In this document: positions 12,174 through 34,950 of the stretch, piece by piece
How the letters are laid out: every line of letters starts with the position of its first letter
Position numbering within the stretch: the first letter of the stretch is position 1
Assembly (NCBI GenBank): GCA_021372575.1
Contig: JAJFUE010000067.1
Span: forward strand, 1 to 34,950
Length of the DNA: 34,950 nucleotides
Source of the DNA: a bacterium
Lineage (GTDB): Bacteria; Sumerlaeota; Sumerlaeia; MVZB01
Direction: 5' to 3'
Made by a program: the position numbers and the translations under genes
The notes under the pieces: model-generated
What the model was told of the DNA's origin: nothing
Databases searched by the model: none
The model's input: only the letters and a program-made list of their open reading frames with translations

Positions 12174-12187
12174 GGTTTTCCATTTTC

Positions 12188-12220
12188 ATGGGACCTATGG
12201 GACTCATGGGACCTATGGGA
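12188..12220. repeat. 9-bp quasi-tandem repeat, ATGGGACCT type
   Basis: About 3.7 copies of a 9-bp unit (ATGGGACCT, ATGGGACTC, ATGGGACCT, then a partial copy) lie right after argJ. Degraded relatives of the same unit occur after lnt (around 14003-14053) and upstream of the sugar kinase gene (33437-33460, other strand). Confidence 0.75.
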
Positions 12221-25644: not shown

Positions 25645-26472
25645 CTATTTTGGGAGTTTCGCTTCGAACTCGGCTTTGCGGCGGTCGTTTTCGAACTGGG
25701 GCTGTTTGCCGGCGATCATTTCTTTCAGCGCGGCCAGTTCGGTGCGCGAGAACGTCGCGCCCTGCAGCACGTGTTCCTCAAAAGCGTCATACGCGGCCGG
25801 CGCGACGGCCTTCGCGCACTTGGCCATCGCCTCGGCATAGACGCGGATTTCGTATTGCGCGTGCTCGTCGAGCCGCAGCTTGATGAAGTGGAACAGGTTG
25901 TGCAGGTCGATCTGCCAATACCACTCGGTGTAAAGCGAAAGGGGCAAATTGATGCGCGCGACTTCGCGGGCGATGCCGGCCGAGATCATCGATTCGTAAT
26001 TGCGATACACCTGCGCCTGATCGCCGACCATCGTCTCTGTGACTTCGCGCGCGAGCTCGGGTGTGACGGACGCTTCGTCGCGTCCCTGGCGGTTGGTCTG
26101 GCTTTGCATGCGCACCTGGTCGGGCTCGGGGACGTAGAACTCGTCCTTCATGACCGAGTAGCGGCCGGAGATTTCGTTCAGCCGCGCCGTGCGGTGGCGC
26201 ACCCACTGGCGCGCAACGAAGATCGGCATCTTCGTGTGGAACGTCAGGATCACCTGCTCGAACGGCGAGGTGTGGCCGTGGCGCATGAGGTAGTTGATCA
26301 GGCCGCTGTCCTCGCGGTGCGTCTTGGTGCCTTCGCCGTAGGAGACGCGCGCCGCCTGCACGATCCTCTGGTCGCCGCCAAGGTAATCGACGAGCCTCAC
26401 GAACCCGTGATCCAGGACCTTGATTTCCTGGTCGAGCAGCGCCTCGGCTTCGGGAACGACTGTATGAGCCAT
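25645..26472 (-). CDS. thyX: Flavin-dependent thymidylate synthase
   Basis: A 275-residue FAD enzyme that methylates dUMP to dTMP with methylenetetrahydrofolate and NADPH, unrelated to ThyA. The signature RHR-x7-S is present as RHRTARLNEIS (R92-S102), preceded by HGHTSPFEQV and MPIFVARQWVRHR. C-terminal YEWYWQIDLHNLFHFIKLR-like residues and the helix-rich end fit the family. The start at 26472 is fixed by GGAGGGG six bases upstream. Frames extending further upstream only translate the 7-bp leader repeat and were rejected. No thyA is in the window. Confidence 0.96.
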   Translation of the reverse strand: MAHTVVPEAEALLDQEIKVLDHGFVRLVDYLGGDQRIVQAARVSYGEGTKTHREDSGLINYLMRHGHTSPFEQVILTFHTKMPIFVARQWVRHRTARLNEISGRYSVMKDEFYVPEPDQVRMQSQTNRQGRDEASVTPELAREVTETMVGDQAQVYRNYESMISAGIAREVARINLPLSLYTEWYWQIDLHNLFHFIKLRLDEHAQYEIRVYAEAMAKCAKAVAPAAYDAFEEHVLQGATFSRTELAALKEMIAGKQPQFENDRRKAEFEAKLPK

Positions 26473-26488: not shown

Positions 26489-26545
26489 GAAATTCGAAAT
26501 CCGAAATTCGAAATCCGAAACAAATTCAAAATTCGAAATCTTAAT
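26489..26545. repeat. 7-bp quasi-tandem repeat in the thyX leader
   Basis: Alternating 7-bp units GAAATTC and GAAATCC, with decayed variants farther out, lie directly upstream of the thyX ribosome-binding site on the minus strand. The array is strongly AT-rich compared with both flanking genes. Confidence 0.75.
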
Positions 26546-26585
26546 CAAATCCAAAAATAAAAAAATCAATCCTACAATCGCTGAC

Positions 26586-26642: not shown

Positions 26643-27920
26643 TCAATCAGCAATCGCGAGCAGGCCGCGGCGGAGGAGGTTGAGGGCGGCGATGGTCGCC
26701 TGCGAACGGACCACCGCGCGCGCGCCCAGGAACTGCCGCCGCTCGGTCTTGACGGAGCCGTCGGGGCCGGCGATGCCGAAAAAGACCAGTCCGACGGGCT
26801 TTTCGTCCGAGCCGCCGCCGGGGCCGGCGATGCCGGTGATCGAAACCGCCCAGTCGGCGCCCGAGGCTTTGCGCGCCCCCGCGGCCATCGCCCCGGCGAC
26901 CTCGGCGCTGACCGCGCCGAAGCGGGCGAGAAGCTCCTCGCTCACGCCGAGCCGGGCGTGCTTGGCCTCGTTGGCGTAGGTCACGAACCCCTCGACGAAG
27001 TAGTCGGACGATCCCGCCGACTCGGTGAGTCGCGCGGCGAGCAGGCCGGCCGTGCACGACTCGGCGACGGCGACCGTTTGGCCTTTTTGCCGAAGAAGGG
27101 CCCCGACGGCGTCCTCGAGCGTTGTCGCGTTCTCGCCGAAAACGTGCCGCGCGCCGACGAGTTCGACGATGCGCGCGCGCCATTCGTTCTCCATCGCGAC
27201 CGACTCGGCGTCGTCGCGGCCGAAGAACGTCATGCGGACATCGACCAGGCCCGGCTTGGCCAGCAGGGCGAACGTCATGCGCGGGTCACGCTCGAAGAAA
27301 TCGGCGACGAGGTCGTTGATCGAGGACTCGCCGAGGCCGACGGTGTGCAGCGTGAGCGTGCGCGGGCGGCCGAGCCCATGCGCGAAATCGTCGATGATGA
27401 GCTGCCGCGCCGACTCGAACATCGGCCGCATTTCGTGCGGCGGGCCGGGCAGGGCCAGCACGCCGGCGCGGACGCTACCGCCCGGATGCATGTAGAAACC
27501 GGGCGCCGTGCCGTGATCGTTTTGCAGAATGATGCCGCCCCGGGGAACATAAGCCTGGACGTCGTTGCTCGGCGGCATGGGGCGGCCCCAGGCCTGGAAG
27601 CGCTTCTTCATGCGTTCGAGCGCTTCGTCATTTTTTTCGAGCGGCGCGCCCCACACTTCGGCGATGAGGTTGCGGTTGAGGTCGTCGCCGGTCGGCCCGA
27701 GCCCGCCGGTCGTGATGAGCAGATCGCACTTGGTCGCGGCCTCGATGAGCGCCTCGCGCAGCAGGTCGCCGCGGTCGGGCAGCGCCATGTGGCGCGCCGT
27801 CGCGAGGCCCAGTTCGAGCAGGCTCAGGCTCAGCCACGGCGAATTGCTGTCAATCCCCGCGCCCTGCAGGATCTCCGTCCCGGTCGAAAAAATCCAGATC
27901 GTGGGATTTTCATTTGCCAT
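26643..27920 (-). CDS. cinA: CinA-like nicotinamide-nucleotide amidohydrolase
   Basis: A 425-residue two-domain protein. The N-terminal MoaB/MogA-like domain (about 5-170) has TGTEILQG, LLITTGGLGPTGDDLNR at 67-83 and LALPGPPHEM at 155-164; in CinA it acts as a pyrophosphatase-like domain on ADP-ribose. The C-terminal PncC domain (about 265-420) has AESCTAGLLAARLTE with nucleophile S288, and SITGIAGPGGGSDEKPVG. It deamidates nicotinamide mononucleotide for NAD salvage. Both active sites look intact. The leader carries the 6-bp GATTAC/GAGCAC repeat 18 bases before the ATG, and I see no strong Shine-Dalgarno sequence. Confidence 0.94.
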   Translation of the reverse strand: MANENPTIWIFSTGTEILQGAGIDSNSPWLSLSLLELGLATARHMALPDRGDLLREALIEAATKCDLLITTGGLGPTGDDLNRNLIAEVWGAPLEKNDEALERMKKRFQAWGRPMPPSNDVQAYVPRGGIILQNDHGTAPGFYMHPGGSVRAGVLALPGPPHEMRPMFESARQLIIDDFAHGLGRPRTLTLHTVGLGESSINDLVADFFERDPRMTFALLAKPGLVDVRMTFFGRDDAESVAMENEWRARIVELVGARHVFGENATTLEDAVGALLRQKGQTVAVAESCTAGLLAARLTESAGSSDYFVEGFVTYANEAKHARLGVSEELLARFGAVSAEVAGAMAAGARKASGADWAVSITGIAGPGGGSDEKPVGLVFFGIAGPDGSVKTERRQFLGARAVVRSQATIAALNLLRRGLLAIAD

Positions 27921-27938: not shown

Positions 27939-27972
27939 TCGTGCTCGTGCTCATGCTCGTAATCGTAATCGA
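27939..27972. repeat. 6-bp quasi-tandem repeat in the cinA leader
   Basis: Read on the cinA strand, units of GATTAC are followed by units of GAGCAC (one varied to GAGCAT). The same succession of units, in the same orientation relative to the gene, precedes flgG at 34510-34569. Confidence 0.8.
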
Positions 27973-28000
27973 AAACCGTTCGCGAGCCTGTTCCTTGTGA

Positions 28001-29023
28001 TTACGGATTCGCCTTCTTGGCCGTCTTGCTGTTCTGGGTATTCATCATGCCCTTGAGGTCGCCGATCGGGATCGCCTGCGGTGCCGCGGGCGCCGGTTCG
28101 TTCATGGCGCCGCCGCCGTTCGACATCGCCTCGGGCGGCGCGATCGCGGCCTCTTCGAGCAGCTTGCTGACGGTGACGAATTCATAACCATGGGCGCGGA
28201 TATCGGAAATGATGCGCGGCAGCGCCTCGAGCGTGTGCGCCTTGATCTCGTGCATGAGGATGATCGCGCCCGGGTGAAGCTGTTTCATCACGGCCGCGTG
28301 GACCGACTCGGCGCTGGCCTTGGCCGTCCAGTCGCGCGTATCGATCGACCAGTTGACCAGCACGAACTGGTTTTGCTGTCCGATCTCGCGCTCGGCCCGG
28401 GTGATCGCGCCGTAGGGCGGCCGGTAAAGATGCGGCCGTTGGCCGGTGATCCCCTGGATGAGCTCGCACTCGCCGGTGATTTCCTTCAGCATCTTTTCAG
28501 TCGTCGTGTGGGCGGGATTCGGGTGCGTCATCGAGTGCAGGCCGATTTCACATCCGGCGTCGGCGGTGTTTTTCACCAGCCCCGGATTTTGCATGACGCT
28601 CGTGCCGATCATGAAGAATGTCGCGGTGGCTTTTTCCTTCTGGAGCGTCTCGACAAAGCGCTGGTTGTAGGCGGCGCTGGGGCCGTCGTCGAACGTCAGC
28701 GCGACCAGCTTGGCCGACTTGGGCCCGTTGTTGAAAACGGTCCCGTAATACTTTTCGATTTTGACTTCGCCTGCCGGCGCGGCGGGCGTCGCCGTGGCCG
28801 CGGGCGTCGCCGTTGTGGCCGGCGCGATGATCACGGGCGTTTGCGTCGGCGTCGGCAGGGCGGGGGTGGGTTTATCGATGGATTTCGCCGAGGGCGGCGC
28901 GGCGTCGGCCGTTTGCGCCATGATCGACGCGACGCTCGAGGCCGACCCGACCTTCATCCCCGCAATAAACGCCGCCACGATCAACAACGCGGCCAGCCCA
29001 AGTAACCAACTCCATTTCGACAT
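28001..29023 (-). CDS. Membrane-anchored polysaccharide deacetylase (CE4/NodB)
   Basis: A 340-residue protein with one N-terminal membrane anchor (about 5-22), a Pro/Thr/Ala-rich linker (about 42-85) and a NodB-type deacetylase domain (about 104-300). The five CE4 motifs are visible: TFDDG (110-114), HSMTH (163-167, metal-binding histidines), RPPYG (201-205), DTRDW (228-232) and LMHE (H258). The enzyme should remove N-acetyl groups from a surface or wall polysaccharide in the periplasm, by metal-dependent hydrolysis; the substrate could be peptidoglycan or another GlcNAc-containing polymer. The start at 29023 is supported by AAAGGA upstream and by the clean signal anchor. It ends with a low-complexity tail of about 40 residues containing NGGGAMNEPAPAAPQ. 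It lies 39 bases after prfB on the same strand. Confidence 0.92.
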   Translation of the reverse strand: MSKWSWLLGLAALLIVAAFIAGMKVGSASSVASIMAQTADAAPPSAKSIDKPTPALPTPTQTPVIIAPATTATPAATATPAAPAGEVKIEKYYGTVFNNGPKSAKLVALTFDDGPSAAYNQRFVETLQKEKATATFFMIGTSVMQNPGLVKNTADAGCEIGLHSMTHPNPAHTTTEKMLKEITGECELIQGITGQRPHLYRPPYGAITRAEREIGQQNQFVLVNWSIDTRDWTAKASAESVHAAVMKQLHPGAIILMHEIKAHTLEALPRIISDIRAHGYEFVTVSKLLEEAAIAPPEAMSNGGGAMNEPAPAAPQAIPIGDLKGMMNTQNSKTAKKANP

Positions 29024-30442: not shown

Positions 30443-30468
30443 GCAGTAGCCCGAGCGTGAGCGAGGGA
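30441..30468. repeat. 28-bp dispersed repeat, copy 1
   Basis: Twenty-eight bases starting ATGCAGTAGCCCGAGCG and ending GAGCGAGGGA are identical to 34464-34491. The core CCCGAGCGTGAGCGAGGG resembles a dispersed motif I associate with planctomycete genomes. Confidence 0.85.
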
Positions 30469-33716: not shown

Positions 33717-34472
33717 ATGAAAGAAATTTATCAGGTCATGAGCGCCGCCGTCGGCCAGGAAATGCGTATCGACCAGATTGCGAATAACCTGGCCAACGTC
33801 AACACTCCGGGCTTCAAGAAGGACGGCTCGGTGTTCCTTGACGAGCTTCAGGCGCGTCTGGCTCAGGGCGCGACGGGCGATCCGGCCCAGTCGGCAAATC
33901 CTGCCGCCACGGTCTGGCCCTCGCTGCCGCGCACTTATACGGATTTAGCGAACGGCCCGATGCAGCAGACCGGCCGCAACCTTGATATCGCCATCGAAAG
34001 CGACGGTTTTTTGAAGGTCCAGGGGCGCGACGGCCAGACCTGTTACACCCGCGCCGGAAATCTGGCGCTGGCCGCCGACGGCAAGCTGGTCACCGCGAGC
34101 GGCCAGCCGGTGCTCAACGACCAGAATCGCCCGATCACGATCGACCAGGCGGCCGGCGGCGAGATCTCGATCAATCCCGACGGCCGGATCCTTGCAAACA
34201 AAACTGAAGTCGGCCGGCTCGGCGTTGCGCGCTTCAGCGACGCCACCAAACTCGTCAAGCGCGGCGAAGGGCTACTCGTAGCTCCCGCGGGCGTTGCCGC
34301 GCAGGCTGTCGAGAACCCGCAGGTCCGCCAGGGGATGCTCGAGGGCTCCAACGTCAACCCGATCGACGAGATGGTCCGCATGATCCAGACGCAGCGCATG
34401 TATGAAGCCCAGCAGAAGATCGTGCAGACCTACGACGACTTGGCCGGGAAGCGAATCGACGCGATGCAGTAG
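33717..34472 (+). CDS. flgF: Flagellar basal-body rod protein FlgF
   Basis: A 251-residue component of the proximal rod, exported by the flagellar type III apparatus. The start at 33717 is fixed by GGAGG seven bases upstream. The N-terminal rod helix has GQEMRIDQIANNLANVNTPGFKKD (about 13-36). The middle hook-basal-body domain has GPMQQTGRNLDIAIESDGFLKVQ, and the C-terminal helix has LEGSNVNPIDEMVRMIQTQRMYEAQQKI, all typical of FlgE/F/G proteins. Length and position directly before flgG favour FlgF. The 28-bp dispersed repeat begins inside its last codons, so the stop codon lies in the repeat. Confidence 0.9.
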   Translation: MKEIYQVMSAAVGQEMRIDQIANNLANVNTPGFKKDGSVFLDELQARLAQGATGDPAQSANPAATVWPSLPRTYTDLANGPMQQTGRNLDIAIESDGFLKVQGRDGQTCYTRAGNLALAADGKLVTASGQPVLNDQNRPITIDQAAGGEISINPDGRILANKTEVGRLGVARFSDATKLVKRGEGLLVAPAGVAAQAVENPQVRQGMLEGSNVNPIDEMVRMIQTQRMYEAQQKIVQTYDDLAGKRIDAMQ

Positions 34473-34491
34473 CCCGAGCGTGAGCGAGGGA
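34464..34491. repeat. 28-bp dispersed repeat, copy 2
   Basis: Identical over 28 bases to 30441-30468. It covers the last two sense codons and the stop of flgF and the first 19 bases of the flgF-flgG gap. Confidence 0.85.
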
Positions 34492-34509: not shown

Positions 34510-34569
34510 GATTTCGATTACGATTACGAGCACGAGCACGAGCACGAACAAGATAACGAAGACGAGGAG
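34510..34569. repeat. 6-bp quasi-tandem repeat running into the flgG RBS
   Basis: Ten consecutive hexamers fill the gap: GATTTC, GATTAC twice, GAGCAC three times, then GAACAA, GATAAC, GAAGAC and GAGGAG. The last hexamer is at the correct distance to be the Shine-Dalgarno sequence of flgG. The same unit order precedes cinA at 27939-27972. Confidence 0.85.
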
Positions 34570-34578
34570 ATCATAACC

Positions 34579-34950
34579 ATGCGCGCATTATCCGTCGCCG
34601 CCACCGGGATGCAGTCCCAGCAGATGAACATCGACAACATCTCGAACAACCTGGCCAACGTCAACACGACCGGGTTCAAGCGCGGGCGTGTCGATTTCCA
34701 GGACCTGCTCTACCAGACTGTTCAGCCGGCCGGCACGAGCGCCAGCGTCAGCAGCGAGGTGCCGACCGGCATCTACCTCGGCCTCGGCTCGCGTCCCGCC
34801 GCGATTCAAAAGCTTTTCACGCAAGGTTCATACACGCAGACCGACCAGAAGCTCGACATGTCGATCGAGGGCGACGGCTTCTTCCAGATCACGCGCGCCG
34901 ACGGCACCTACGCCTACACGCGTGACGGCTCGTTCAAGCTCGACAGCCAG
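34579..34950 (+). CDS. flgG: Flagellar distal rod protein FlgG, N-terminal part
   Basis: The first 124 codons of the distal rod protein, cut by the end of the window. It starts MRALSVAATGMQSQQMNIDN, followed by ISNNLANVNTTGFKRGRVDFQDLLYQ, the classical FlgG N-terminus. Then come GLGSRPAAIQKLFTQGSYTQTDQKLDMSIEGDGFFQI, matching the FlgG-specific V-G-x-G-V/x-x-x-x-x-x-x-x-F-x-Q-G region. GAGGAG lies nine bases before the ATG and is part of a hexamer repeat. It follows flgF by 106 bases and is probably in the same sigma-54-driven operon. Confidence 0.95.
   Translation, partial: MRALSVAATGMQSQQMNIDNISNNLANVNTTGFKRGRVDFQDLLYQTVQPAGTSASVSSEVPTGIYLGLGSRPAAIQKLFTQGSYTQTDQKLDMSIEGDGFFQITRADGTYAYTRDGSFKLDSQ

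Follow-up and report, generated by a model that had tools for sequence, protein, structure and literature searches.

Short repeats of several kinds resemble the hexamer arrays described here. PATEs are non-autonomous elements derived from IS200/IS605, and the heptamer STRRs of cyanobacteria are short intergenic direct repeats. GTAG-type REPs, BIMEs and REPINs are found with RAYT Y1 transposases (PMC3733652), and BrickBuilt of Porphyromonas gingivalis is reported as a MITE enclosing tandem repeats with 23-nt units (PMC4596501). For the TAACTGA direct repeats of Beggiatoaceae, a role as translation leaders has been proposed (PMC4679880). In titles and abstract openings, a scope that mostly excluded subscription papers, we found no description of the present hexamers or of the outward rule reported below.

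The hexamer arrays share some features with each of these systems. Like GTAG REPs, BIMEs and REPINs, they are dispersed and intergenic and form opposite-orientation pairs; 15 of them, the flgG copy included, are preceded at near-fixed spacing by a hairpin made of a GTAG tag and a palindrome, and the genome has 13 Y1_Tnp matches. Unlike those systems, the hexamer array is a direct repeat that itself lacks a GTAG tag and does not flank the Y1 loci examined. BrickBuilt is similarly intergenic, with inverted-repeat ends and a tandem array as its interior, whereas the arrays here have 6-nt rather than 23-nt units, consist of two words in fixed order, and occur across phyla and in unrelated backbones. 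The likeness to IS200/IS605-derived elements such as PATEs lies in an element of one Desulfobulbaceae MAG (G064), whose ends match those of an autonomous element encoding a 143-aa Y1 TnpA; its interior, however, is an outward-facing pair of hexamer arrays, and the match is known from this MAG only. Finally, both our arrays and the TAACTGA repeats and STRRs are short, tandem, intergenic and dispersed, with many sets that are patchy across distant phyla and often lie before starts, but the unit here is 6 rather than 7 nt and comes as two words in strict polarity; most stop-side copies of our arrays are reversed, and paired arrays form palindromes. Taken with the evidence below, the arrays in the window are probably copies of a dispersed, non-autonomous intergenic repeat that serves as the arms of small palindromic mobile-type elements, and not translation leaders.

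The two arrays and their family in the genome

The window (the whole 34,950-nt stretch analyzed) carries one array upstream of cinA and another upstream of flgG (Table 1). A first-pass annotation held that these genes, on opposite strands, share a hexamer leader in the same orientation, and the underlying observation was confirmed: at 27970-27941 (minus) and 34516-34545 (plus), the units run from GATTAC to GAGCAC toward the start codon. The arrays end 20 bp before the cinA ATG (27920) and 33 bp before the flgG ATG (34579), the latter with a degenerate unit, GATTTC, directly on its 5' side (34510-34515). Pfam identifies the downstream gene of array 1 as CinA and the pair around array 2 as flagellar rod-type proteins; the distinction between flgF and flgG is our own assignment, the Pfam matches being common to the FlgE/F/G group. 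With up to two mismatches, GATTACGATTAC matched the window 10 times against 1.56 expected, a count reached by 0/100 shuffles.

Table 1. Coordinates of the two hexamer arrays and adjacent features in the window.
Feature	Position	Strand	Remarks
Polar hexamer array 1	27941..27970	-	GATTAC x2, GAGCAT, GAGCAC x2, toward cinA
5' spacer of array 1, GGCTCGCGAACGGTTTTC	27971..27988	-	Resembles REP-to-array spacer of other copies
cinA, downstream of array 1	26643..27920	-	PF02464 (1.6e-56), PF00994, PF18146
Polysaccharide deacetylase gene, upstream of array 1, on the cinA strand	28001..29023	-	PF01522
flgF-like gene, ends in REP	33717..34472	+	PF06429, PF22692, PF00460
GTAG-type REP hairpin GTAG-CCCGAGC-GTGA-GCGAGGG	34469..34490	+	Sequence; fold
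Polar hexamer array 2	34516..34545	+	GATTAC x2, GAGCAC x3, toward flgG
GAGGAG, putatively Shine-Dalgarno-like, outside array	34564..34569	+	9 nt before flgG ATG
flgG, cut by contig end, continues in contig C30 (L037)	34579..34950	+	PF22692, PF00460

The 20-mer GATTACGAGCACGAGCACGA occurs in 264 exact copies (137 on the plus strand, 127 on the minus) in the 4.63-Mb genome of the window, referred to here as G000. Among 61 genomes including this one, five carry the 20-mer; the four others have 12, 5, 2 and 1 copies, and it was absent from the remaining 56 of the 60 other genomes searched. Arrays were characterized in a sample of 121 stretches covering 1.746 Mb of 4.627 Mb, in which a 7-kb overlap between two stretches was trimmed; 101 stretches were the window or were picked by contig number, and 20 were picked partly for listed arrays. 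Arrays with two or more exact units numbered 160 in this sample. The orientation counts rest on the 147 that were intergenic and flanked by called genes at either end (nine at stretch ends and four intragenic arrays were left out). Among the 94 first-sample arrays with both units, 89 had GATTAC followed by GAGCAC, none had the reverse order, and five were mixed; unit numbers vary from one to five for GATTAC and from one to six for GAGCAC. One array (L085, 6832-6873) lies in frame within a long membrane-protein-like ORF, where it reads FDYDYDYEHEHEHEHEK. Genes were called with our own codon-usage script, which makes start positions approximate, and seven starts were reset where the caller had extended a gene across a sense array.

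Polarity at gene edges

Array orientation is strongly nonrandom, and the rule is that the GAGCAC end lies toward the nearer gene edge, whether that edge is a start or a stop. This end was the nearer one in 113 of the 147 intergenic arrays (p=4e-11), including 24/27 in convergent and 15/21 in divergent gaps, and in 32/44 arrays within 60 stretches added later. Relative to genes, the GAGCAC end faced a start in 84/147 arrays and a stop in 63/147. Of the stop-facing arrays, 27 lay in convergent gaps, and the other 36 were antisense copies in co-directional gaps. Co-directional gaps showed an excess of sense arrays (63/99, p=0.009), also in the 1.373 Mb picked regardless of arrays (45/71, p=0.03). 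The division between the two ends of such gaps was sharper: start-proximal arrays were sense in 42 cases and antisense in four, while stop-proximal arrays were sense in 21 and antisense in 32 (Fisher 6e-8). By random draw, both arrays in the window would face a start about one time in three (84/147 squared).

The first-pass annotation had proposed a count of orientation relative to the nearest start, naming equal orientations or a majority of copies far from starts as evidence against its reading; the outcome falls halfway, with a clear sense bias close to starts and a modest one in co-directional gaps overall, but with 63/147 arrays facing stops. Its suggestion of a directional insertion process is compatible with the nonrandom orientation and is the one we favor, although polarity tracks the nearer gene edge and not starts as such.

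The intergenic DNA of this genome is rich in other arrays with 6- to 9-nt units, including several families of 7-9 nt recovered by a tandem-repeat scan. Five heptamer families, with the orienting word of each fixed from the first sample, kept the outward strand in 50/56 arrays when retested in 60 new stretches (p=1e-9), while the 9-nt GGACC family departed from the outward rule (25/46). The AAATTCG/AAATCCG family was outward-polar in 19/21 sampled arrays, and a member lies in the window (26489-26556) just before a thyX-like gene (25645-26472, minus). Arrays of the same family that share one gap were outward in 35 cases, inward in five and same-strand in seven, and those of mixed families in 17, one and 10, respectively; for the new stretches only, these counts were six, zero and zero for same-family and four, one and two for mixed-family arrays. 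A word that contains a stop codon on one strand can displace the edge of a gene, so this polarity is possibly inflated in part; in each polar family, few arrays (0-4) had been set aside as intragenic.

Outward polarity at starts and stops alike, its recurrence in five unrelated heptamer families and the scarcity of inward mixed-family pairs could indicate selected DNA-level boundary marks at gene edges, which would bind proteins, insulate, or stop polymerases or motors, however the arrays spread. We consider this candidate function unlikely: the gene-edge shifts noted above may inflate the polarity, and the arrays are missing at orthologous sites and in most relatives (the 20-mer being confined to 5/61 genomes).

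Conservation bears also on the possibility, raised by the first-pass annotation, that the arrays are functional leaders, that is, 5' UTR RNA elements bound by a protein or the ribosome to control translation. The predominance of sense arrays next to starts and the overall sense excess would suit such a role, and the TAACTGA repeats of BOGUAY, which are reported to lie in forward orientation just before starts (PMC4679880), offer an analogy. However, a translation leader is improbable and went unsupported here, because many copies face stops, the next array of the flgG cluster is reversed, and orthologous genes lack arrays. That next array, 3' of the flgG stop on contig C30, points into the stop and is reversed relative both to flgG and to the start of the following gene, and the split in the sample (84 versus 63) is not the single orientation relative to starts that a leader would have. 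An array was present in the 198-280 nt upstream of cinA at 0/29 loci of relatives (30 loci examined, including that of the window) and in 0/7 flgF-flgG gaps; the latter came from nine relatives' flgF-type matches, seven of which had a flgG-like start next and two of which had other genes next. The flgF-flgG gap measures about 56 nt in one relative (G002) and 69 nt in another (G003), versus 106 nt in the window, where the REP and array account for the extra length. The two leaders in the window do not fold clearly better than shuffled sequences (z -1.4 and -1.3), and the GAGGAG that precedes flgG lies beyond the array. No known RNA family matched the window at the gathering threshold. The gap of a further relative (G010) holds copies of a different, 9-nt word; arrays of 9-nt words of the CCTATGGGA type occur in the window (12186-12220) and in sampled stretches, and related words fill the G010 gap.

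Element contexts of the arrays

Fifteen of the 160 arrays are preceded by a GTAG-type REP, and in 12 of these exactly 20 nt separate the REP GGGA from the first unit. The flgG array belongs to this group, with a spacing of 18 nt if the degenerate unit is counted, and its REP (34469-34490) has both the GTAG tag and an adjacent imperfect palindrome; translation of the flgF-like gene ends at the TAG of this REP, and the hairpin folds at -8.7 kcal/mol (34470-34491 folded). The cinA array has no intact REP, and its 18-nt 5' spacer scored highest of the 145 REP-less arrays, and above every control window, against a matrix derived from the spacers of the other 14 arrays that follow a REP. The spacer of the flgG array scores low in the REP-spacer matrix, so the two copies in the window are unlike in this respect. 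The REPs themselves are dispersed and extragenic, with 33 matches in the first 0.97-Mb sample, two of them flagged within called genes. A second GTAG REP lies at 30446-30467 (plus) of the window with no hexamer array.

A second context in G000 is a TIR-type MITE. Its left end matched the sample at 10 places, each followed by an array, degenerate in one case, and the terminal inverted repeats (TTAGAG..TTGACAAAAGTTTTCCGG versus ..GGACAACTTTCGGC..GCTCTA) are imperfect, as judged by eye in about 10 copies, an inspection that did not establish a target-site duplication; TIR ends of this type were not seen at the two arrays in the window. A palindromic module, CCAGCCTTCGCCAAGGCTTCGGCTGGCAAG, occurs inside or directly before some arrays (L040 8041-8073 and 16120-16153, L094 17029, L257 14900), as if the arrays were insertion targets.

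Array pairs no more than 250 bp apart in G000 comprised nine outward, no inward and five same-strand pairs. Folding of four array pairs gave energies between -47 and -69 kcal/mol, with z between -7.7 and -13.9 in 4/4. Most arrays in this genome are single; that these are pairs with a decayed second arm was considered and rejected, with no excess of degenerate partners on the 5' side relative to a reversed control.

An exact 27-mer was found in at least 37 stretches of at least 19 other assemblies, most array-bearing sources being MAGs, for which contamination is possible, and one being a complete chromosome (CP050848, 6 copies). A cultured isolate, Planctomycetales bacterium ZRK34, is among the carriers of arrays. 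Among the matches listed, assembly titles name Riflebacteria, Planctomycetota, Sumerlaeota, Hydrogenedentota, Desulfobacterota, Acidobacteriota, Lentisphaeria, Verrucomicrobia and Bacillota, and 16/16 assemblies recounted carry the 20-mer in 1 to 80 copies. At loci of other genomes together with six loci of relatives, pairs within 250 bp were outward in 13 cases, inward in none and same-strand in six. The outward rule held in 5/5 arrays of a Riflebacteria genome (G061) but in only 10/17 clustered arrays of a Pirellulaceae genome (G062), which counts against a universal rule. At Pirellulaceae M30B19 loci (L116-L147), the arrays cluster in a few regions, where they come after a conserved CTCGCTTCAACCGTGCTGG module and arrays of heptamer-like words (AGAACCA, GCTAATG).

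In the Desulfobulbaceae MAG, 15 pairs are outward and none is inward, and the GAGCAC end is nearer the gene in 28/35 arrays. Of 14 aligned pairs, most share a common core and common outer flanks, and a right-end pattern was found at seven places, with arms, some degenerate, at 6/6 of those taken as loci. The element ends match those of an IS200-like element in the same MAG (L295), exactly over 14-17 nt on the left and at 84-87% over 63 nt on the right, whose 143-aa Y1 TnpA matches PF01797 (5.9e-43). The hexamer palindrome occupies the place of the transposase gene.

In the window genome, no array lay within 1.5 kb of the 12 Y1_Tnp loci examined (of 13 matches), and a Y1 gene flanked by the same REP, as in RAYT systems, was seen at 0/12 loci, with one weak pattern match. 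The Riflebacteria genome has arrays and no Y1_Tnp match. Other candidate drivers were rejected: a reverse transcriptase, there being no RVT_1 match in G000; the 23S rRNA intervening-sequence protein, with nine matches in G000 but present in 37/61 genomes versus arrays in five; and carriage mainly by phages, the 27-mer occurring in one contig of the viral collection and the short-loop pair pattern in none. One phage contig (L214, 2040-2240) has AAATTCC-like, GATGAGT-like and GATTAC-GAGCAC repeats in the gap that separates a lambda-type portal gene from the next.

Ordinary microsatellites, arising by replication slippage at each site without mobility, are a highly improbable explanation: unit numbers do vary, and slippage may set them, but it cannot alone explain why hundreds of sites, and the other assemblies, carry an identical pair of words in one fixed order, or why flanks are conserved in several element families.

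Origin and implications

Under the favored reading of the arrays as parts of mobile-type elements, each array would be an arm of fixed polarity, with GATTAC inside and GAGCAC outside, occurring alone or in outward pairs that form a long palindrome. Its putative carriers are a REP-spacer-array composite and the TIR MITE in G000, and an IS200-derived element in the Desulfobulbaceae MAG. Because of dyad symmetry, the arms would point outward, producing sense "leaders" beside starts and antisense "trailers" beside stops, and the matching arrays at cinA and flgG would then be two start-proximal copies rather than a translation signal. The shared ends in one MAG and the MITE-like ends in G000 suggest that spread occurs by transposition in trans, potentially by Y1/HUH enzymes for IS200-like elements and perhaps the REP type, and by another transposase for the TIR type. 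Several observations count against the arms model, namely that arrays are mostly single with no excess of degenerate partners, that the Y1 loci of G000 lack arrays and the Riflebacteria genome lacks Y1_Tnp, that polarity is weak in the Pirellulaceae genome, and that sense arrays are in excess in co-directional gaps. Since the array sits in unrelated element backbones, it may not be an arm in the strict sense but a module, a landing site or a target.

These results recast a "shared leader" as a testable rule, that short polar repeats face outward whatever the direction of the gene. Annotation may wrongly label such arrays as regulatory leaders or carry genes across them, as our gene caller did at seven starts. 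Polar repeats common to distant phyla are housed in several kinds of small mobile element. It is also conceivable, though we regard it as doubtful, that uncultured bacteria of many phyla share a small vocabulary of polar 6- to 9-nt tandem-repeat words that face outward at gene edges, both starts and stops, and that frequently differ between one edge of a gap and the other. If so, one unrecognized DNA-level process (end-addition, hairpin-primed copying, or a Y1-driven element family) would be decorating intergenic DNA, and REPs, MITEs and IS200 derivatives would be vehicles or targets of that process.
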